Of a stretch of DNA of 64,000 bases, positions 1 through 39,900 are shown one piece after another. The stretch is from Arctopsyche grandis (taxonomy: Eukaryota > Arthropoda > Insecta > Trichoptera > Hydropsychidae). The position numbers and the translations under genes were made by a program. The stretch spans positions 1,180,501 through 1,244,500 of the forward strand of contig NC_135358.1 of the NCBI RefSeq assembly GCF_051622035.1. Direction: 5' to 3'. Every line of letters starts with the position of its first letter. Position 1 is the first letter of the stretch. The notes beneath the pieces are model-generated. The model was given only the letters and a program-made list of their open reading frames with translations. It searched no databases and had not been told where the DNA came from.

Positions 1-566
1 CGACGCTTGCTGCTGTGGGTCGTGTGGCGTTGTTTGGGTTGTACCTCCTTTTATAGTGTTTCTGGAATCACCTGACCCATGGTGGTGGTTTGTTGATGCG
101 TAAGCGAGGAATTTACTTTTGTCGAGGGGTAGAATTTTCTGGAACGATTGGCGCCGTTCCGCTCGATGTAGTTTAATGGTGGCGGCGTGTTTCGACCGTT
201 TTGGTTCCGCTCGACTGGTAGGGGCGTTCCGCTTGATTTTAATATAATGGCTGCAGGTGTGCGTCGTCTGGGTTTCGTTCCGCTCGAGTGTGAGGGGTGG
301 AACATTCTCGAAGGATTTGGCACCGTTCCGCTTGAGTTGGATTTGGCACCGTTCCGCTTGAGTTTAATATAATGGCTGCAGGTGTGCGTCGTCTGGGTTT
401 CGTTCCGCTCGAGTGTGAGGGGTGGAACATTCTCGAAGGAACTGGCGATTGATTCCAAGAAGTGCACGTGTTGTGTACGTGTGGTGAGTTCTGCAAGGAA
501 TGTGGTTTGTTGTTGTGGAATATTCTCGAATGTTTCGATGACGATGACGATGACGAGATTCCTACA
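1..566 (-). mobile_element. LTR of retrotransposon, cut by window start
   Basis: Reverse-oriented copy of the LTR family seen at 878-1727, 2029-2587 and 4141-4852. Its 5' terminus (TGTAGGAATC on the minus strand) ends at 566. The inverted TATA box (TATAAAA) is at 49-55. The U3 part carries repeated GC-rich blocks and four perfect 13-bp heat-shock-element matches. It is inserted in the Harbinger relic that continues at 567. The duplication expected at 567-570 (ACTG) cannot be checked because the other flank is outside the window. It could be a solo LTR or the end of a longer element. Confidence 0.85.
132..530. promoter_or_regulatory. Heat-shock-element cluster in LTR U3
   Basis: Perfect three-unit matches to GAAnnTTCnnGAA are at 132-144, 300-312, 425-437 and 518-530, all upstream of the minus-strand TATA box at 49-55. 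HSF trimers bind inverted GAA/TTC pentamers of this form. Binding is inferred from sequence only. Confidence 0.6.
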
Positions 567-877
567 ACTGTATAAGGAGCTTGTGGATGATGACAAAATT
601 TTTTTAAATATTTCCGTAAAAAATTTTAATTTTTTTTAAATATTTGCGCCAAAACCATGTCGAAAGATTGAACAGCTGTCAACTGTCACTATCGATAATT
701 GGTCCAAAACAGCAAAGCGGCAGACTCATGGCACGTAATTCGCGTGTATATTTCCACGATGGCCAAAAAAACGGATACGATACGTTGACGGATGTTGCTG
801 TAAGGTATGAACAGTAAATGTTGGGTACTGCTGTAAGCCTGCCGTGGTGTAAACGTGACGGTTGGTATGAATATACC

Positions 878-1727
878 TGTAGGAATCTCGTCATAGTCAT
901 CGTCATCGAAACATTCGAGAATATTCCGCAACAACAAACCACATTCCTTGCGGAACTCACACACGTAAACAAACATTCCCGAAAACCAGACGTCGCACAC
1001 CTGCAACCATTATATTAAACTCAAGCGGAACGCCCCTACCAGTCGAGTGGAACCAAAACGGTCGAAACACGCCGCCACCATTAAACCACATCGAGCGGAA
1101 CGGCGCCAATCATTCCAGAAAATTCTACGCCTCGACAAAAGTGCATTCCTCGTTCACGCATCAACAACCACATGCGCTTACGCATCAACAACCACTTCCA
1201 TCAATCGTTCCAGAAAATTCTACGCCTCGACAAAAGTGCATTCCTTTCTTACGCATCAACAAACCACCACCATCGGTCAGGCGATTCCAGAAACACTATA
1301 AAAGGAGGTACAACCCAAACAACGCCAGTCGACCCACAGCAGCAAGCGTCGACACACAGCAACAGACCAGTCGACCCACAGCAGCAAGCGTCGACATACA
1401 GCTCCTGACCAGCCACCACTACACTACGCGGACTTGGAAGATCAACCAGCCGGACGAGCCAGCAACACACTGCCGTATCCAGAGACCTTCCGAACATAGC
1501 CGAACACCGAGCCAGCAACACACTGCCGCATCCAGAGACCTTCTGAACATAGCTGAATGCCGAGCCAGCGACACTCTACCATATCCAGAGACCGCTGAAC
1601 GACATACTTTTGCCCACAAATACCATACCTTTGTACAACCATAGGCAAACAATAAAACTTTATAAAACTAGCACAACAGTGTTTCGTTAGGCCGGGATAC
1701 GGTCAACACATCGCTACCCCGCCTACA
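878..1727 (+). mobile_element. Solo LTR, 850 bp
   Basis: Starts TGTAGGAATC and ends CCGCCTACA (TG...CA), flanked by a perfect 4-bp duplication TACC (874-877 and 1728-1731). No internal region is present, so it is a solo LTR from LTR-LTR recombination. TATA box at 1297-1303 and poly(A) signal AATAAA at 1651-1656 define U3-R-U5. The flanking host sequence rejoins cleanly with the Harbinger copy at 16.15 kb, which confirms the insertion. Confidence 0.92.
914..1303 (+). promoter_or_regulatory. LTR promoter: three HSEs plus TATA box
   Basis: Perfect TTCnnGAAnnTTC sites at 914-926, 1113-1125 and 1208-1220, a two-unit TTCnnGAA at 1285-1292, and TATAAAA at 1297-1303. The spacing resembles heat-shock gene promoters. 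Function is inferred. Confidence 0.6.
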
Positions 1728-1817
1728 TACCCATAAAAAATGTACCAAAGAATACTTTTCGTACGGCCGGATACCTGCTGAAGTCGGTACGTGCCGACTA
1801 GGTATGAACAGACCTTA

Positions 1818-2028
1818 AAGTGGCTGGTTTAGGGGTCGAGCTTCTTCCTTTGGAAGGTCACGCCCTGTACCTGTTTAGTGGTCAACTTTACTTTCTCTGG
1901 GGGTCCTGTTTTGTATTTTAGTTACGCTCGATTTTGCACAATTTTTTTGCAAAAATTTTTGTACAATGTTTACAATACATGCATTTTTGGTGCGTAGTAC
2001 ATATGTACGTGTTTACCATGTATTCCTA
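1818..2028. other. Spacer between Harbinger relic and LTR element
   Basis: No gene or recognisable repeat. It ends with the target duplication CCTA (2025-2028) of the next element. Confidence 0.5.
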
Positions 2029-2587
2029 TGTAGGAATCTCGTCGTCGTCATCGTCATCGAAACCTTCGAGAATATTCCGCAACAACAAAATACATCGAGC
2101 GGAACAGCGCCAAGCATTCCAGAAAATACTACGCCTCGACGAAAGCAAATTCCCCTTGTACGCATCAATAACTAAATGCTCGTACAACCACTTCCATCAA
2201 GCATTCCAGAAAATACTACGCCTCGACAAAAGTGCATTCCTCTTGTACGCATCAACAACTAAATGCTCGCACGCATCAATAACCACTTCCATCAAGCGTT
2301 CCAGAAAATTCTACGCCTCGACAACAGTGCATTCCTTTCTTACGCATCAACAAACCACCACCATCGGTCAGGCGATTCCAGAAACACTATAAAAGGAGGT
2401 ACAACCCAAACAACGCCAGTCGACCCACAGCAGCAAGCGTCGACATACAGCTCCTGACCAGCCACCACTACACTACGTGGACTTGGAAGATCAACCAGCC
2501 GGACGAGCCAGCAACACACTGCCGTATCCAGAGACCTTCCGAACATAGCCGAACAACGAGCCAGCAACACATTGTACCCCGCCTACA
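2029..2587 (+). repeat. 5' LTR, internally deleted
   Basis: 559 bp from TG to CA, against 712 bp for the 3' LTR. About 153 bp is missing between the last GCCAGCAACACA and TACCCCGCCTACA, removing the poly(A) signal. TATA box at 2388-2394. The true old LTR end may be the third end repeat at 2743, whose context is most like the solo LTR end. Confidence 0.85.
2065..2394 (+). promoter_or_regulatory. 5' LTR promoter with HSEs
   Basis: Perfect TTCnnGAAnnTTC at 2065-2077 and 2299-2311. Two intermediate repeats have the third triplet mutated (TAC). TATAAAA at 2388-2394. Confidence 0.55.
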
Positions 2588-2760
2588 TTGGTGACCCCGA
2601 CGTGATCTACGCAACCTTCTGATCATTCAACAGTGCTGTCAACACACATGTACCCCGCCTACATTGGTACTACCCCGACGTGATCTACGCAACCTTCTGA
2701 TCATCCAACAGCGCTGTCAACACACATCGCTACCCCGCCTACATTGGTGACCCCATCTTT
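2575..2760 (+). repeat. Triplicated LTR-end/primer-site unit
   Basis: TACCCCGCCTACATTGGT occurs at 2575, 2651 and 2731 (periods 76 and 80). The first copy is followed by the full tRNA-Trp match, the second by a disrupted one (TTGGTACTACCCCGACG), and the third by only about 10 matching bases. Confidence 0.85.
2589..2606 (+). promoter_or_regulatory. Primer binding site, tRNA-Trp
   Basis: TGGTGACCCCGACGTGAT is the complement of the 3' 18 nt of eukaryotic tRNA-Trp including CCA. It begins one base after the LTR end. Avian retroviruses are known to use the same primer. Confidence 0.9.
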
Positions 2761-2850
2761 GAACTACGCAGCCTTCATAGCAGTCAACAGCGCAGTCAAC
2801 ACGGCAGCCCACAGTGCAGCCTCCACAACAACCAACAGCCGCCACGACAG

Positions 2851-3066
2851 CAGCCCACAGCGCAGCCTACATAGCAGCCCACAGCGCAGCCTACATAGCA
2901 GCCCACATCGCAGCCTACATAGCAGCCCACAGCGCAGCCTACATAGCAGCCCACATCGCAGCCTACATAGCAGCCCACATCGCAGCCTACATAGTAGCCC
3001 ACATCGCAGCCTACATAGCAGCCCACATCGCAGCCTACATAGCAGCCCACATCGCAGCCTACAAAG
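2851..3066 (+). repeat. 24-bp minisatellite, 9 units
   Basis: Nine head-to-tail 24-bp units built on CAGCCCACATCGCAGCC plus TACATAG, differing mainly at AGC/ATC. The unit is a multiple of three, so it keeps frames open on both strands and produces low-complexity open frames that need not be proteins. Confidence 0.95.
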
Positions 3067-3130
3067 CAGCCAACAAACGCCACGACAAGGCAACAGCCAG
3101 AAGCCTTCACGCAACCGCAAGCTTCGAACA

Positions 3131-3870
3131 ACCAACGTTCTTCACGCAAGACCCGCTGTCGAGACAACTAACTCCAGCACAACCAACGAAGACCAGCACT
3201 CAACGCACTTCGTCAACCAACGTTCTTCACGCAAGATCCGCTGTCGAGACAAATAACTCCAGCACAACCAACGAAGACCAGCACTCAACGCACTTCGTCA
3301 ACCAACGTTCTTCACGCAAGATCCGCTGTCGAGACAACTAACTCCAGCACAACCAACGAAGACCAGCACTCAACGCACTTCGTCAACCAACGTTCTTCAC
3401 GCAAGATCCGCTGTCGAGACAACTAACTCCAGCACAACCAACGAAGACCAGCACTCAACGCACTTCGTCAACCAACGTTCTTCACGCAAGATCCGCTGTC
3501 GAGACAACTAACTCCAGCACAACCAACGAAGACCAGCACTCAACGCACTTCGTCAACCAACGTTCTTCACGCAAGACCCGCTGCCGAGACAACTAACTCC
3601 AGCACAACCAACGAAGACCAGCACTCAACGCACTTCGTCAACCAACGTTCTTCACGCAAGATCCGCTGTCGAGACAACTAACTCCAGCACAACCAACGAA
3701 GACCAGCACTCAACGCACTTCGTCAAACAACGTTCTTCACGCAAGACCCGCTGCCGAGACAACTAACTCCAGCACAACCAACGAAGACCAGCACTCAACG
3801 CACTTCGTCAACCAACGTTCTTCACGCAAGACCCGCTGCCGAGACAACTAACTCCAGCACAACCAGCAAA
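3131..3870 (+). repeat. 85-bp minisatellite, about 8.7 units
   Basis: TTCACGCAAG recurs at 3141, 3226, 3311, 3396, 3481, 3566, 3651, 3736 and 3821, exactly 85 bp apart. The unit is not a multiple of three, so each copy changes frame, which argues against coding. Copies differ at few sites, suggesting recent expansion. Confidence 0.95.
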
Positions 3871-4140
3871 ACAGTCACGCGAATGACTCCACGCAGAACA
3901 CAACAGCCTGCACAACAGCACCATCCAAGCCATCACAAACCTTCACTACCAACGCAGCTCGCCCAAAATAAGCAACCTGGTAGAGAACAAGACTTGGACC
4001 GGCATGCAACACAAGACCCGCTGTTGAGACAACTTTCTCCAGCACAACCGGACAAACAACGACGCCATCGAGTCAATAGACTCCAACACATCAAGATTCC
4101 CACAAAATCACACACATCGCTAACACTCACCGGAGAGCCA

Positions 4141-4852
4141 TGTAGGAATCTCGTCGTCGTCATCGTCATCGAAACCTTCGAGAATATTCCGCAACAACAA
4201 AATACATCGAGCGGAACAGCGCCAAGCATTCCAGAAAATACTACGCCTCGACGAAAGCAAATTCCCCTTGTACGCATCAATAACTAAATGCTCGTACAAC
4301 CACTTCCATCAAGCATTCCAGAAAATACTACGCCTCGACAAAAGTGCATTCCTCTTGTACGCATCAACAACTAAATGCTCGCACGCATCAATAACCACTT
4401 CCATCAAGCGTTCCAGAAAATTCTACGCCTCGACAACAGTGCATTCCTTTCTTACGCATCAACAAACCACCACCATCGGTCAGGCGATTTCAGAAACACT
4501 ATAAAAGGAGGTACAACCCAAACAACGCCAGTCGACCCACAGCAGCAAGCGTCGACATACAGCTCCTGACCAGCCACCACTACACTACGCGGACTTGGAA
4601 GATCAACCAGCCGGACGAGCCAGCAACACACTGCCGTATCCAGAGACCTTCCGAACATAGCCGAACAACGAGCCAGCAACACACTGCCGCATCCAGAGAC
4701 CTCTGAACGACAGAGACCGCTGAACGACATACTTTTGCCCACAAATACCATACCTTTGTACAACCATAGGCAAACAATAAAACTTTATAAAACTAGCACA
4801 ACAGTGTTTCGTTAGGCCGGGATACGGTCAACACTTACCTACCCCGCCTACA
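4141..4852 (+). repeat. 3' LTR, 712 bp
   Basis: TG...CA LTR with TATA box at 4500-4506 and poly(A) signal at 4776-4781. Perfect HSEs at 4177-4189 and 4411-4423. The preceding CCGGAGAGCCA is a weak polypurine tract. It lies in the same orientation as PPM1G, 377 bp before that gene's ATG. Confidence 0.9.
4177..4506 (+). promoter_or_regulatory. 3' LTR promoter with HSEs
   Basis: Two perfect TTCnnGAAnnTTC sites and TATAAAA at 4500-4506, pointing towards PPM1G. Confidence 0.5.
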
Positions 4853-8200: not shown

Positions 8201-10132
8201 GTCCGAAGACGGTAACTAAATGGCGATTTACTTAAAAAATCAGCTGCGTTTAAATGTGTATTATATGTAAATTAAATTTTATAGACGGAGCCGAAGAAGA
8301 AGAATCCAGTGAAGAGGATGAGGATGAAATGAATGACTTCTCGATGAGGATAAAGAATGAACCCGGGTCGAACAGTGGTTGCACAGCAGTTGTAGCATTA
8401 TTACATCGTGAGTTGTTGATTTAATATGTGTCAACGTAAAGACTGTTCAAATCAAGCTGCCCCTATATAGTCAACATGACAAATTGGACTCAAAGCTGCA
8501 GATGTTTCCTTAGATATTGAAATACCGTTGTCGTGGCCTAATTTATTCAAAATTTCAATGAATTTCAGGTGACCAATTGTATGTGGCGAACGCAGGAGAC
8601 TCTCGGTGTGTCGTGTGCCGAAATGGAGAAGCCGTCGATATGTCTATTGACCACAAACCTGAAGACGACATAGAATTGGACAGGATCATAAAAGCCGGCG
8701 GTAAAGTTTCCAAGGACGGCCGAGTCAACGGCGGTCTGAACTTATCGAGAGCGATCGGAGACCTCGGCTACAAGCAGAACAAGAGTCTCGGAGTCAAGGA
8801 GCAGATGATTACCGCATTCCCAGATGTAAAGACTCTCACAATAAACCGAGAGACTGATAAGTTTATAGTTTTAGCATGTGACGGTATTTGGAATTTTATG
8901 TCGAGCCAAAATGTAGTCAATTTCGTGTCAGAACGGCTCGCCGAAGGCAGGGAGAAACTTTCGCAAATATGTGAAGAGGTACTTATTATTGCATTATTTT
9001 CGTGTTATATTGTATTTGGGCGCCTTCACGTTTTTACTTTAATATGCGGTCTGACTGTCTCGGTTCAGTGAGATTGAATAATAGCCAGCAGCATAGCTCG
9101 GTCGTTAAGCTTCTGCCTAATACTGAGGCGCCATGTTCGATCCCATGAGTTGACCTAGATTGAAAAGAATTTTTCTGAGTATATCTGTAGTGCTGCTGGT
9201 TAGACCTGGATATTTGTGCTCCAGGTCGATCGTTTCCTATCAGAGTTTGCCAATCAACAACGGTTCCCGATTAAAAATTGGCTAAAAACCTTCCTACCTA
9301 CTATTTCACCACTATTTGAGTATGATTAATGTACAATAAAATGTATGTACAATTCATAGATGTCTCGTTATTTGCCATTTTTCAGTGTTTCGTAATTCAG
9401 CGACTTGTATAATAAAAATTCTGTATTTGTAATTGGCCAGGAAGGAGCATTGGGGTTTACCTGTAAGGCCTTCCTTGGTATAAAATGTAATAAAATAAAA
9501 AAAAACCGATCCTAAACCTAATCTTAAATGCATAGTGCCAAACCTAACTTAACCTAACCTAACCTGACCCTTAAATAAATAGGTGTTGGCTGCTAAGATA
9601 TGTTTTTTTTGTGAAAATATTGATGAAATAAAACTTAAAAAAAAAACATATCTTAGCAGCCAACACCTATTTATTTAAGGGTCAGGTTAAGTTAGTGTTG
9701 GCCCTATTCATTAGGTTGTTAGGGTCGGTATTTTCTTCGCTGCTGGCGATATTTTGATAGAAATGCTTCGACAACATTATGGGGTGGACATAATAAACAG
9801 GTCGTTGCTACGATACAAATAAAAAAAAATAGTCTACTGCGATTCAAAGGGAGACCGCATACTAAAGTAGCACCGTATTTTGATTGTGTGCTAATTTTTT
9901 TTTTTGTTTTTAGATGTTCGATCATTGCTTGGCACCGAATACACTTGGTGACGGAACCGGTTGTGACAATATGACCGCTTTAATAATTGTATTTAAGTCT
10001 GACAAAACTAGTGAAATAGCAGTGTCGAAAAAGAGACCTTCTGACAATGAAGAAGCGGACAATCAGGAGGACACTCAAGCCAAACGCCTAAAGACTGATA
10101 GTGATGCCGGTTCAGTTTCTTCGAGTGCTTAA
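5229..10132 (+). CDS. PPM1G: Protein phosphatase 1G (PP2C family, Mg2+/Mn2+ dependent)
   Basis: Nuclear Ser/Thr phosphatase of the PP2C/PPM family, in animals linked to histone H2A-H2B and splicing factors. Coding exons: 5229-5339, 6999-7233, 7307-7653, 7728-8211, 8285-8407, 8569-8978, 9914-10132, with GT-AG introns and consistent phases; about 642 aa (human 546). The start MGAYLSEP matches the conserved PPM1G N terminus with its myristoylation-type glycine. Catalytic motifs are all present: GWRVKQEDAH (E37, D38), VYDGHGG (D57, G58), ACDGIWN (D538) and GCDNMT (D588). Exons 3-5 encode the long Ser-rich and acidic insertion typical of PPM1G, here enlarged. The tail RPSDNEE and KRLK suggests a nuclear signal. 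It is convergent with IFT20. Intron 6 holds a SINE and a perfect hairpin. Confidence 0.95.
5340..6998 (+). other. PPM1G intron 1
   Basis: 1659 bp. A C-rich start with CACCTA repeats gives way to AT-rich sequence with a TATATG microsatellite at about 6618-6650. No exon or element was recognised. A GGCGCCCTAGGC stretch near 6890 is the only GC-rich patch. Confidence 0.6.
9084..9505 (+). mobile_element. tRNA-derived SINE in PPM1G intron 6
   Basis: Head GCCAGCAGCATAGCTCGG with box A-like TAGCTCGGTCGTTAAGC and box B-like TTCGATCCC. The body contains TCGTTTCCTATCAGAG and the CCAGGAAGG...CCTTCC hairpin tail, ending in AATAAAATAAAA. The same family recurs at least a dozen times in the window. Confidence 0.85.
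9560..9689. repeat. Perfect 51-bp inverted repeat (hairpin)
   Basis: Arms 9560-9610 and 9639-9689 are exact reverse complements, separated by 28 bp. Left flank has AACCTAACCTAACCT, a CCTAA-type run. It lies in PPM1G intron 6 and so would fold in the pre-mRNA. Confidence 0.9.
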
Positions 10133-14035: not shown

Positions 14036-14562
14036 TTCCCGGCCTATGGAAATTCAGTTGAATTTTGAAGAGGATCTTTATTTGCTTGATTAATACAGGT
14101 GTATTTGTATGTACAGCGAAGTAGGTAGGGGATTCGCTGGAACGAGTCAGGTCGAGTTTCTGAAGCTCACTGGCATCTGGAGATGATGCGCTGGTTTATA
14201 AAGGTGTTGCTTGAGCAACGTGTAGCTGGGCTGGTGAGATCACGTTCTGGAAGATTCCAACGGGGTCGAGGTCTTCCTTTGTGTTCTATGTTTGATGCGT
14301 AGTTGCGTAGCTCCTTGGGATTTCCCGTGTACTCATGATTGATTACATTTACATATTACATTTCTATTCATATCTACCTACACGTCGCGGTCACGTCATG
14401 CTTACATCACTTTGGCCGAGTGCAAGGCAAAATCGGCTTACTTATACATTACAGGCCATGACAATACGGCACAATATTGCTTACGTCGTATTGTCGAGTA
14501 CTTACAATATGAATGCATACACGTGCATTCGTAGCTACGCGTCAGAATACAAGTCAGCAAAA
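14036..14562. other. Unassigned sequence upstream of Harbinger relic
   Basis: Contains GGTTTATAAAGG near 14195 and the reading frame that runs into the Harbinger fragment, but no match to any family in the window. It may be the 5' part of the Harbinger element. Confidence 0.35.
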
Positions 14563-14940
14563 ATGTTTCGGCGTTTATCGAACGAAAAATTATGTATAAT
14601 CGCGCTGTTGTTGGAAGAAGAAGCTCAAGAAGGCAATAAAAAATCACGAAGGCGTTTTGATGTGCATCCCATGTTAAAAAATAAAAAAAAAACCGAAGGA
14701 GAGCTTTGGACACTGTATAAGGAGCTTGTGGATGATGGACAAATTTTTTTTAAATATTTCCGTAAAAAATTTAAATATTTGCGCCAAAACCATGTCGAAA
14801 GATTGAACAGTTGTCAACTATCACTATCGATAATTGGTCCAAAACAGCAAAGCGGCAGACTCGTGGCACGTAATTCGCGTGTATATCTCCACGATGGCCA
14901 AAAAAACGGATACGATACGTTGACGGATGTTGCTGTAAGG
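14563..14940 (+). pseudogene. Harbinger transposase, N-terminal fragment
   Basis: Frame starting MFRRLSNEKL, then RRRFDVHPM and LWTLYKELVDDGQIFFKYF. This matches the N-terminal region of HARBI1-like DDE transposases (basic RRR-W/F-VHP, then LYKEL...FFxYFR). The catalytic DDE domain is absent: homology ends after about residue 75 and the frame continues into terminal sequence and the hAT insertion. It cannot encode an active enzyme. Confidence 0.8.
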
Positions 14941-16081
14941 CAGCGGTTTCCAAACTTTATGCTACTACGCCTCCCTAAAAAAAATTTTTTTTTCCGCGCC
15001 TCCCTACCTTTTATTTTTTAATAGATATAATAATATAGACACGTTTTAAATAATAAACCTTTGTTTAAAAAAAAAAATACTGAACACTACAATAGACAGA
15101 ATAATAAAAAGGTTTTGCTATAACATAAATTTATACGAACACCTATATTTATTTTTATATTAAATTACTAATTAAACTACCTCTAACACATCAAAATTTA
15201 GTGCGAAGGATGTTGTTGTTTATTGGCACAAAGTTTATCAAATCTTGTGGGGCAATATGGAGAGTGCCACTCGTAACTCCTTTTCGACTATTAACCTGGC
15301 TCGATATTTGGTTTTCATTGCGGCTAGTGCCGAAAAGCCCGTTTCGAATAAATAAGACGTTACAAACGGTCGAAGCACTTGCATTGTTTTGCAATACAAA
15401 GATTCATACTATCCACTAAGATTCATCCAAAATTTAATTTTGGTTTAATTTTGAAACTTTTGTTTTAGTGACCTATCGCATGATAATTCTATCAATTTTT
15501 CTTTTTCGATGGTTGTCAGCTCGAATTCGTCTTCTTCATTGTAGTTTTAATAGTAAATGGATTCTGTATCCACAAAATTTTTGAGAAATCAAGGTCTTTG
15601 AAATAATTGAAAAAATGCAGCACTAAACCATCCAAGTGGTCATTAAAAAGATTTTTACTTGCTTCAATATTGGCTGTGGACAAGAAATCTTTGGAAAGTG
15701 AAAACATATCCAACTCATTCTTTTGTAAATTTGATTTCCATAACTTCAACTTTTTAATGAAAGCTTTTACTTTGTCTTTTTAAACAAGTGGATGTATTTG
15801 TGATCCCTGCATTGCTTTATTTAAACCGCTCAATTTTCCAAAAATTTCAACCAAATAGGCAAGTTCATGTCTCTTCATGTTGGTTTTCTTCGAGAAAGGT
15901 TGCTAATTAAAAATAAACATTCATGCATTGAATTTTTACTGTTAAGCTACGATATGAAGTTTTATTTATTTGAAGGTATTATAGTATGAAAATTATTTTC
16001 TTATTAAAAAGTTTTGGCGCCTCCCCTGGCAATAGTCCGCGCCTCCCCAGGGAGGCGCACCTCCCAGTTTGGAAACCGCTG
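14941..16081 (-). mobile_element. hAT element, 1141 bp, defective
   Basis: Termini CAGCGGTTTCCAAACT and AGTTTGGAAACCGCTG, with a perfect 8-bp duplication CTGTAAGG at 14933-14940 and 16082-16089. Minus-strand remnants of a FAM200/ZBED5-like hAT transposase lie at 15895-15516 and 15390-15186. Recognisable pieces are LFNDHLDGLV, NPFTIKT and, in another frame, ETGFSALAAMKTKYRARL from the hAT dimerisation domain. A stop and frameshifts break the frame. Confidence 0.93.
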
Positions 16082-16311
16082 CTGTAAGGTATGAACAGGA
16101 AATGTCGGGTACTGCTGTAAGCCTGCCGTGGCGTAAACGTGACGGTTGAAATGAACATACTCATACAAAATGTACCAAAGAATACTTTTCGTACGGCCGG
16201 ATACCTGCTGAAGTCGGTTCGTGCCGACTAGGTATGAACAGACCTTAAAAAGTGGGCAAAATGCAACGTCACATTTGGCCGTAAGAGCGGGCATATTAAT
16301 TACGTGTCGAT

Positions 16312-16457: not shown

Positions 16458-21801
<5,344 letters not shown>

Positions 21802-35929: not shown

Positions 35930-36771
35930 ATGCGAAATGCGGGAGCGCGCCGGCTGGAAAGGCATCGCTATCGCAAGGGGTTGGGGCGGCGCGGGTGTCG
36001 GGGTGGGGGTGGGGGTGGGGCTGGGCGGCAGTGTGGGGGGGCTGCGCGCGGCGCTGACCTTGGGGCGGGCGCGTGCGCGGGCCTGGAGTGGGGAGCGGCG
36101 AGGGGCGGCGGGGCGTCGGGTGTCGGGCGTCGGGCGTCGGGCGTCGGGCGTCGGGTGTCGGCGTGGCGCAGTCGGCGGAGGAGACGCGCGTGGGTGGGAA
36201 CAGGAACGGCAACGGCACGGCACGGCGCGGCGCGACACGACACGGCAACGGAGCGTCACACCAAAGAGAGCAGCGACGGCAACGGCAAGGCCAGTGGCGG
36301 GCCGAGGGTTGGGGTGGGCGGCGGGAGTGGCAGTGGCAGTGGCAGTGGCAGTGGTAGTGGTGGTAGTGGCGAGGGGGAACCGGAGCCGGAGCAGCCGCAA
36401 CAGCAGCAACAGCAGCAACAGCAGCAGCAGAGGCGAGTGGCGAGTGGCGAGTGGCGAGTGGCGCGCGATGGTGGCCGCCGCGATCGGTCGGCGGATGAGA
36501 TCGGCGCCATCGCCATCGCCGTCGCCGTCGCCGTCGTCGTTGCAGCCGTTGTCGTCGCCGCGCTCGTCCTCCCCGTCGTCGACGTCGTGCCCGCCTTGGT
36601 CGCCGTCGTGGTCGCCGTCGTGGTCGCCGTCGTGCTCGTGCTCGTGCTCGTGGTCGTGGTCGTCGCCGTCAGTCGGATCGGTCTCGTGGACGCGGACGGC
36701 GGTCGAGCGGATGGCCGCCGCCGCCCCCCGCTGAGGGCGATGCGCTCGCCCGACACCTAGCAGCCGCCATT
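35930..36771 (+). promoter_or_regulatory. GC-rich promoter/5' UTR of DGK-like gene
   Basis: Sharp GC-rich island with heptamer tracts (CGGGCGT at about 36113-36161; GGCGAGT at 36431-36464), CAG repeats (36390-36430) and long GTC/CGT triplet runs (36500-36670). Two forward frames, and also reverse ones, are open through it because stops are rare in such sequence. The frame of the downstream ATG is open back to 36358 but has no earlier ATG. Treated as non-coding. Confidence 0.45.
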
Positions 36772-36910
36772 ATGGCCGGAGCGCCCTCGCCCGACGAGCT
36801 CCAAGCCAGAGGACACTCCTTCGCCAAGAAGACCTTCCACAAGCCCACCTACTGCCACCACTGCTCCGACCTCCTCTGGGGTCTCATCGGACAGGGCTAC
36901 AATTGTGAAG
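36772..36910 (+). CDS. First coding exon of C1-domain protein, diacylglycerol kinase theta-like
   Basis: Start MAGAPSPDELQ, then GHSFAKKTFHKPTYCHHCSD and LLWGLIGQGYNCE. This is the first part of a C1 zinc domain with H15-x12-C28-x2-C31-x13-C45. The exon ends GAAG|GTATCG, phase 1, so the next residue would be Val or another G-codon residue, as in the usual CEVCNF. The wording FxKPTYCHHCSDLLWGL is closest to diacylglycerol kinase theta-type C1 domains, which bind lipid and act in phosphatidic acid signalling. PKC and Unc-13 C1 domains fit less well. The other exons are beyond the window, so intron 1 exceeds 27 kb. Confidence 0.75.
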
Positions 36911-39900
36911 GTATCGTATCACCCCCTCCCCTCATTTTCATCACCAGCATTTTCACCATCGCTCGAAAATTCCTATCTCTCATTTGCGCAACGTTCCCCA
37001 CATTGTGCAATGCGCGCAGTTATTTTCGCCGCCGCTGCCGCTTACCGATCGCCCGGCGTCGATTGTGGCGCCGAATTTCGCACGCGAAAATCAACAACGA
37101 GGCGCGAGCTTTCCGACCCGAAAGCCCCTCGGAAAATTCCAATCCCGCTCCCAACAAACCCAATACCGAAAAAATACCAAAAATTCACTCAATGCCTCTC
37201 TCACTCTCACTCACTCTCTCTCTCTCTCGCCCGTGCCTCGCCCGGACGAGTCGAATTGTAGTGCCGAAAATCGACGTGAAAACTCCTCGGAAAATCTACG
37301 CCCGACTACCCTCAAAAGTCCTCAAAATTTACTCACGCTCACTCGCACGTACGAAACGAATCGCGAAATCGACAATTGACGCCGATTTTATCGGAAAATT
37401 TACCGAAAATCTAACGAAAAATGAAAATTTTTTCGTGTTGCTTTATGTATGATTCACATACAATCCAGTTGACATTTTCTCAATTCGAAACAGTGTCGAT
37501 TTATGAAACGGGAGCTTTCCAGTGCAAAAGTGCCTCGGAAAATATACAGCCCAGAATCGACATTATTTTATATTGCCTAAAATTACTTACGTAGAATCCT
37601 ACAATAAGTGAGTCAAATATTAAAATCACTAAATCTGTTTCAAATTATGCACCGTATTAGTATTTTGTGATAATTTGCTGAAAAACACATGCTTTGAATA
37701 GTGTCACCGATCTGTTGAATTATAAAATCAAATATCAACAGCGAGGCGTGAATTTTCCGACGCCAAAACGTCTCGGGAGAATTTTCACCTCAAAAATGCC
37801 CATTTCCATAAAGTTCAAAGAGTTATACACGTATAACGACAGTTTTTTCATCGGTAAAACCTTTCCTATCCAAATATTTTACAAAATACACAATTTTAAT
37901 AGGGATCAAATGTAAAAAATTATGTGGTTTTATGAACGCTCAATAGTCAATGTATCAATTGATAGTTTTGTGTAAAAGCGATGTTTTATCTTTTTTTTCC
38001 TTTCATTCGATTATAAATTCAAGATTGACTTCTGCTGATTTATACATAGATAGTTTGACGATTGACTTGTCACAGTATATCTGTCGTAAAAATGATACAA
38101 AAATTGGCATCACCGAAATCACTCCATCAGCCAATAAAGAAAATGCTTTCTAAATATAATACCTAATTAATGACTTACCCCAAAAAATACGTTCGAAAAA
38201 TGCGCCAAATTCATTGATGAAGTAATACTAATCTGATGTATTCAATTTTCAAGTTGTAAAAGTGAAAATTCGTGCGTAGAATAGTCTCAAAATGGCTAAA
38301 CGCCGAACTGAATTCGCACACTGGAAAAGTGCGTACTTGCCGATGAAAATCGTCGAAGATTCCGTGCATCAAATAGTCGTAGAAAATACCAAATTTAACA
38401 TATAGTATTGATGTTGAGAAAATGCGTCTGATTTAATGCCAAAATTATTTTGATTGCAAAAATAGTGCGTGTTTGCTCTTCAAGTTTGACATAAACGTGT
38501 ATATTGAAATCATCGCATCGCAATGACAATGATTGTGACATGTATGTATGTGAGCTTTTCCAAAATTGATGCAATTTTCATATCGGAAAAGTGGGTGTTC
38601 GTGCTTAGAAAGTGTGAAAATTCATACACATCCAATATATAATATATACATACATAATAGCATTAAAATCAGATTTTAAATTTTCCAGTCAATTGTCGTT
38701 TATGTTTTAAAGGTTGTTTGCATGATGGCTAATGAGAAAATTCATACCACACTGTATTGTATTTCTTGGGCGTGGTTAGGCACTAGTAATAATAAATTAG
38801 AGTTACAAAACACCAATTCATATTTTTTCCGACATCAAGAACTGAAACTTGAAATGGTATCGTAATAAATATTTGTTTTGAGTGTTCACATGCAAATTTA
38901 TGTTAACACATTAGTTTTTTCATTTTCATAATAATGTCAAAACATCTTATAAATATAAACATACATACATACGTTATTATTTACATTTTACATAATTTGA
39001 CATTTGAAAACATATTTGTCTGATGTATCCATATAATCATATTACTTACAGAACTTCATGAATGGAAACCGGTCTATTTTGATGTAACTGCATATCTACA
39101 TATATATGAATATATGAATTATATATGTACATATGTATAGGTATATATATTGTATTTAGTCTCGTCAAATTCATTTTTTACAGATAATGATAGATGTGTA
39201 AGTACAGGTAACAAAAATTTATCTAGAAAGTCATAATAAATTCGGAAAAGTGCAAGTTCAACTGCATTATTGGTTCTTTCGTTGGGAAAAAGTATGAAAA
39301 TAATGAAACGCTCGATACACGAATGGGATTGTTTTTATCTGATATTTATAACTCGTGGTTTACGACACACATCCAAAAAGAGCCACGTACATGTAGTGTC
39401 ATATTCATTAACGCAATCTGTTATCAATAAAACCGTGTCAATGAATGCCCAATTTCGATCGACTCGTCAATTTCGTTCCGACCAATACGTACGTACATAA
39501 TGTGCGTGTGTGTGTGTGCGCGCGCGTTCGAAAGGGACTTTTCCGGGCGATTTTCCGACTCGGCGCGGGGTTTTCTTCGGGTTTTCCGAGCGCAAGTTGC
39601 TCGCACAGAGCAAACCGAATTATGCGTGCAAAATTTTAATTCGGACGAAAAGTGTCTGCGAAATTAATTCGATACAAATCGACGCAAAATAAAATTAACA
39701 AATAAAAACGTTGAAATTTTCATTGAAAATTTTTCCGGGCGTCCAGAAAAATTTTAAAGAAAAACACAAAGTAAGAAATTTTCTACCTAACGCATAAACA
39801 CGGTTGTAATTTAAACGAATTAATTGAATTTGTGAATGAAAAGTCAATGAATAATACTTGAATTGAATTGGAAATTTGTTCCGTTATTTTCTTTAATTTT

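Follow-up and report, generated by a model that had tools for sequence, protein, structure and literature searches.

Perfect heat-shock elements in the LTR promoters of an apparently non-autonomous retrotransposon family of Arctopsyche grandis (Trichoptera)

The window analysed here, a stretch of 64,000 nucleotides from the Arctopsyche grandis genome (Hydropsychidae; assembly GCF_051622035.1, contig NC_135358.1, positions 1,180,501 to 1,244,500), begins with four long terminal repeats (LTRs; L0 to L3) of one retrotransposon family, two of which enclose an apparently non-autonomous element. In the window and in copies recovered from the rest of the genome, the U3 promoter of this family carries one to five perfect heat-shock elements (HSEs), comprising a five-unit site A near the start of the LTR and further sites, B, within a block that is duplicated in tandem. 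The features concerned are as follows, in window coordinates.

1..566, minus strand: L0, an LTR truncated at the window start; HSEs at 132, 300, 425 and 518; TATAAAA at 55-49
878..1727, plus strand: L1, a solo LTR with TG...CA ends; TACC at 874-877 and 1728-1731; HSEs at 914, 1113 and 1208; TATA at 1297
2029..4852, plus strand: LTR element, apparently non-autonomous, with CCTA on each flank
2029..2587, plus strand: L2, the 5' LTR (559 bp); HSEs at 2065 and 2299; TATA at 2388
2065..2077, plus strand: site A, TTCGAGAATATTC, a perfect three-unit core; the identical 13-mer is found in L0, L1 and L3
2117..2129, plus strand, also at 2204 and, in L3, at 4229 and 4316: B-block copies with eight of the nine HSE bases, TTCCAGAAAATAC
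2299..2311, plus strand: site B, TTCCAGAAAATTC, 89 bp upstream of the TATA box, in the final one of 2.7 tandem copies of a ~95-bp block
2567..2802, plus strand: 78-bp tandem repeat in three copies, the unit comprising the LTR end and primer-site-like sequence
2589..2606, plus strand: primer-binding-site-like sequence TGGTGACCCCGACGTGAT, immediately 3' of the 5' LTR
2767..3075, plus strand: 24-bp tandem array, 13 copies
3129..3865, plus strand: 85-bp tandem array, 8.7 copies, with a period that is not a multiple of 3
4141..4852, plus strand: L3, the 3' LTR (712 bp); HSEs at 4177 and 4411; TATA at 4500; AATAAA at 4776

A first-pass annotation of this DNA had reported eleven perfect three-unit HSEs, and all eleven were confirmed, each of them within one of the four LTRs; one further perfect HSE lies outside the LTRs, at 14245. 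The random expectation, previously put at about 0.5 per 64 kb, was roughly half of what 100 dinucleotide shuffles of the window gave (mean 1.08, maximum 5; the two phases of the pattern being a single site seen from either strand), and the excess over chance still stands. Every one of the eleven has a TATA box downstream, so their assignment to U3 holds throughout and, as described below, extends to copies elsewhere in the genome. When 32 classes of alternating triplets were compared in positions 1-4852, GAA/TTC returned 11 matches and the low-complexity class AAA/TTT six, with none in the others; among equal spacers of 0-7 bases, GAA/TTC matched at the two-base spacer only. Both the units and their spacing are therefore of HSE type.

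The same controls bear on whether the TTCnnGAA units are read by a different factor with the same half-sites, e.g. one of STAT type. TTC and GAA half-sites are common to STAT sites. A STAT dimer site, however, consists of two half-sites, usually three bases apart, whereas the three-unit runs in the LTRs occur at two-base spacing alone and their three alternating units suit an HSF (heat shock factor) trimer. We thus consider a STAT-type reader highly improbable.

The eleven sites are not independent events: the LTRs share descent, a single insertion accounts for both L2 and L3, and most of the sites look, from the LTR alignment, like copies of two, A and B. Site A, which starts at LTR position 37, is not part of the duplicated block; in L1, L2 and L3 it is flanked on each side by a unit with two of three bases, yielding five units, three of them perfect. 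In all four LTRs the B copy closest to the TATA box begins at -89 relative to it. The earlier placement of the HSEs inside a repeated block built on CATTCCAGAAAATTC is accordingly right for the B sites and wrong for site A. Nor do block copies equal HSE copies, as two of the three B blocks in both L2 and L3 read TTCCAGAAAATAC, a single base short of an HSE. Since HSF trimers bind runs of at least three nGAAn units (PMC5059998), A and B are by sequence good HSF targets.

The apparent descent of most sites from two also favours an explanation in which the HSEs are passengers: a founder LTR would have possessed two HSE-like sites, which copying and duplication then spread, while the LTR itself is driven otherwise or silent. 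We regard this as doubtful. The L0 sites at 300 and 425 differ from site B in their spacer bases and nevertheless retain all nine HSE bases, although this difference may go back to one event or to conversion from site A. Site A spans five units, and two different perfect HSEs within a U3 of ~400 bp would be unlikely to arise by chance, given the frequency in shuffled U3s reported next.

The family was sought throughout the 475.7-Mb assembly with two queries, of which the first contained HSEs and the second, of 135 bp, has no perfect HSE and thus yields the fairer sample. Copies were taken as the best 40 of 971 and the best 40 of 578 candidates, so that copy numbers are lower bounds. The 70 loci fetched, together with the window, supplied 74 U3s (40 L3-type, 34 L1-type); seven loci gave no U3 (L045, L047, L048, L060, L063, L067 and L068), each of which has two or three perfect HSEs. 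Comparison with shuffled LTRs, the check proposed at the outset, bore out the HSE density of the genomic copies: all 74 U3s contain at least one perfect HSE (one in 5, two in 34, three in 32 and four in 3; mean 2.45), against 0.0057 per U3 in 2,960 shuffles. With the HSE-free query, two or three perfect HSEs were present in 41 of 41 places (the best 40 of 578, and L0).

The layout is also shared. The A 13-mer occurs in 73 of the 74 U3s, and 73 likewise contain a five-unit alternating run with three or more perfect units. The distance from the TATA box up to the closest perfect HSE is 89 bp in 63 U3s and 87, 92 or 131 bp in five more, i.e. within 131 bp in 68 of 74. Genome-wide, the A 13-mer was found 884 times versus 9 for its reversed control, and perfect HSEs 10,010 times versus 3,269 for the reversed pattern. 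Twenty A 13-mers were chosen by hand, all on contig C1 and among 100 of the 884 matches listed; 14 of them fall inside a family LTR. Scaled from this small one-contig sample, the count suggests ~600 LTRs with an intact A 13-mer, and the family probably comprises hundreds of LTRs. Some of the 14 LTRs on C1 have four or five perfect HSEs, with B blocks spaced at 72 to 95 bp; HSE number therefore tracks block number. Together, 88 U3s have one HSE in 6 cases, two in 39, three in 36, four in 6 and five in 1, whereby 14 of the 88 were found through site A itself and their having an HSE is no evidence.

HSEs were also noticed in other repeats. A second repeat, unlike the family LTR, holds a perfect four-unit HSE, GAATTTTCGAGAATATTC, at loci L143 (148-165) and L150 (151-168), whose copies are 90% identical over 299 bp. 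The sequence TTCTAGAATTTTC accounts for 10 of 100 perfect HSE sites listed. Further HSE-bearing repeats may thus exist in the genome.

In the window element itself, the two LTRs are direct repeats with TG...CA ends, accompanied by target duplications and a primer-site-like sequence; L2 is 153 bp shorter than L3, the missing portion lying in R/U5. Most of its interior is taken up by the 78-, 24- and 85-bp tandem repeats, and no gag or pol was found there (two frames, one of them 2781-3338 across the 24-bp array, gave no match in a Pfam scan). With this repeat-only interior, the primer-site-like sequence and 4-bp target duplications, the element looks non-autonomous. Both this and the descent of most HSEs from about two sites had escaped the first-pass annotation, whose account of the HSE arrangement otherwise holds across the family. 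All six pairs of LTRs fetched from elsewhere share the 24-bp, 85-bp and pre-LTR parts of the interior within 1.9-2.8 kb, and five of the six match the primer-site region, the exception being L020. The junction of LTR end and primer-site-like sequence also occurs in runs of two or three at four other genomic places.

TGGTGACCCCGACGTGAT at 2589 is a putative complement of the 3' end of tRNA-Trp. A primer-binding site for tRNA-Trp is described for the CsRn1 clade of Ty3/gypsy elements and a 4-bp target duplication for PwRn1 (PMC2582038); TACC and CCTA are of CsRn1-clade length. At 2.8 kb with LTRs of 0.56-0.71 kb, the element falls between the TRIM (below ~1 kb) and LARD (multi-kb LTRs) classes as delimited in PMC3532108. 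Among insects it resembles PbTRIM of the harvester ant, likewise non-autonomous, with a primer-binding site and a non-coding interior; PbTRIM is far shorter, its U3 measuring 61-64 bp, and the portion of its description at hand mentions no heat-shock element (PMC3532108).

For a coding partner, 20 primer-site neighbourhoods (700 bp each, of 41 junction matches) were inspected. They yielded no coding copy by which the reverse transcriptase and CHCC Gag of the CsRn1 clade could be recognised. Repeat interior occupies 15, and other sequence follows in L113, L115, L119, L121 and L129. L115 encodes a reverse-transcriptase domain (PF00078), which by its motifs looks like that of a non-LTR element; L113, L121 and L129 contain no forward frame longer than 71 residues, and the frames of L119 were seen without a domain scan. 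An LTR pair 5.2 kb apart on C6 (L009) was considered as an autonomous element and rejected, as it is a non-coding tandem duplication of interior and 3' LTR.

Paired U3s are nearly identical, with 0-1 base differences in all six fetched elements and a single difference in 400 positions in the window element. The family would therefore have moved recently, unless gene conversion evened out the paired LTRs.

The host genome has a divergent hsp70 pair, and a search for the HSF domain gave one good match on a chromosome-size contig and two on small contigs. In the 450 bp next to the ATG, both hsp70 copies have the same HSE-like sites, which reach at most seven of nine bases; one of them, GAATTTTCTGGCG, is identical in its first 11 letters to the LTR B site, on the opposite strand. 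By sequence, the LTR HSEs are no further from the consensus than the hsp70-proximal sites, which fits a function and is no proof of it. The small contigs with HSF-domain and Hsp70 matches are C58, C158, C149, C153 and C171; they could be DNA of another organism or unplaced host sequence.

On this sequence evidence, we estimate a probability of about 0.6 that the LTR is a heat-inducible promoter driven by HSF and working like that of the plant element ONSEN. Under heat or proteotoxic stress, a host HSF trimer would bind A and B, and the bound factor would drive transcription from the LTR TATA box; the layout would combine a strong distal site A with a variable number of block-borne B sites. The resulting RNA might then be reverse-transcribed and inserted by the enzymes of another element. 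Heat-driven movement is less likely than heat induction, and it also needs those enzymes in trans. Only tentatively, and with the odds somewhat against it, would we extend this to an animal counterpart of ONSEN in the full sense, i.e. a family whose transcription and spread are HSF-driven, which gains and loses HSEs through block copy number and which has distributed strong HSEs by the hundred over the genome. The A 13-mer alone accounts for 884 of the 10,010 perfect HSEs. Were this true, the scattered HSEs could rewire the host heat response.

Several observations weigh against HSF-driven induction. The closest perfect HSE is at least 184 bp from the TATA box in 6 of the 74 U3s, and 6 of the 20 sampled A 13-mers lie outside the LTR family. 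Best-scoring samples under-represent older copies, and the U3 copies compared (40 L3-type, 34 L1-type) are too uniform to reveal selection on the HSE bases. The 20 primer-site neighbourhoods yielded no autonomous partner. A perfect HSE is in fact present at one hsp70 copy, 868 bp 5' of the ATG, along with sites of eight of nine bases from 489 bp upstream; the other copy has no site above seven of nine within 1.5 kb. Among 210 B blocks (69 distinct; anchored on sequence downstream of the HSE), 126 have a perfect HSE and 84 do not, 78 through an identical TTC-to-TAC change in the third unit and 6 through other changes, so that conservation of the complete third unit is not strict. The B 13-mer varies far less than its outer flanks; its spacers and most of the next 11 bases, i.e. 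the anchor itself, are as conserved as the HSE bases, and conservation in the B block is consequently not HSE-specific. The first 80 bp of the LTR are likewise nearly invariant throughout, not site A alone. These last two points are also what would be expected if the HSEs were passengers.

A response of the LTR to stress could alternatively come mainly from a release of silencing under heat, with the HSEs adding little. In C. elegans, loss of the nuclear RNA interference factor HRDE-1 allows heat to activate genes, many of which lie within or close to LTR elements (PMC4714518). Such a release would leave the HSE enrichment unexplained, and we judge it improbable as the main cause.

Parallels to the proposed HSF-driven induction of the insect family exist in several lineages. 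ONSEN/COPIA78 and other Brassicaceae COPIA elements also have HSEs in their LTRs (PMC3907296, PMC5059998). The strong HSE of ONSEN arose by duplication of a short proto-element (PMC3907296, PMC5059998), and predicted 3P/4P elements track the heat response among Brassicaceae COPIA (PMC5059998). These are plant Ty1/copia elements in which the heat response and, for ONSEN, HSF dependence have been demonstrated (PMC3907296, PMC5059998), whereas the insect family has a repeat-only interior and HSE sites spread over several hundred bp. Helitrons of Caenorhabditis likewise are mobile elements that supply many genomic HSEs in clusters; they are DNA transposons whose HSEs do not lie in an LTR promoter and for which HSF-1 binding is reported (PMC6927752). 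In the fungus Cryptococcus, the heat-mobilised elements TCN3 and TCN12 have putative HSEs in their LTRs, two in TCN3 and one in TCN12, and mobility at 37 °C was observed (PMC12810828).

The literature matches listed contained no insect LTR family bearing perfect HSEs in arrays, most subscription papers being outside the search. The copia element is reportedly the subject of older work on heat induction. Among the matches listed, the closest insect report concerns predicted HSF sites in Drosophila copia and gypsy, LTR elements with stress-induced expression; in the available text, one such site is given per LTR, without three perfect units and without an array (PMC10745035). More broadly, transcription-factor motifs in transposable-element promoters have been described for D. 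melanogaster, according to PMC5059998, and heat-induced activation of transposable elements via host machinery has been shown in animals, according to PMC12810828. HSF-driven retrotransposons are demonstrated in plants; among the matches listed, the animal cases are nematode Helitrons and loosely matching predicted sites in fly elements. Such a young family, with arrays of HSEs in U3, would make it possible to ask directly in an insect whether an animal LTR retrotransposon is mobilised by heat via the host HSF, and whether its insertions lend a heat response to neighbouring genes.

Other features noted in the window are a fragment of another repeat and exons of host genes.

567..877, no strand assigned: repeat fragment in the L0-L1 interval; 93% identity both between 572-805 and 14717-14940 and between 796-876 and 16080-16160
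8562-9071: protein phosphatase 2C exons
20464-21801: glucosidase II beta exons, the closest named relatives being from insects (46-52% identity)
36499-37452: exons of a C1-domain protein, perhaps protein kinase C

A Harbinger-type transposase was considered for the repeat on the basis of a resemblance, but the frame 14311-15018 has no Pfam match. The second copy of the fragment (572-877), at 14.7-16.2 kb, is split by ~1.1 kb.

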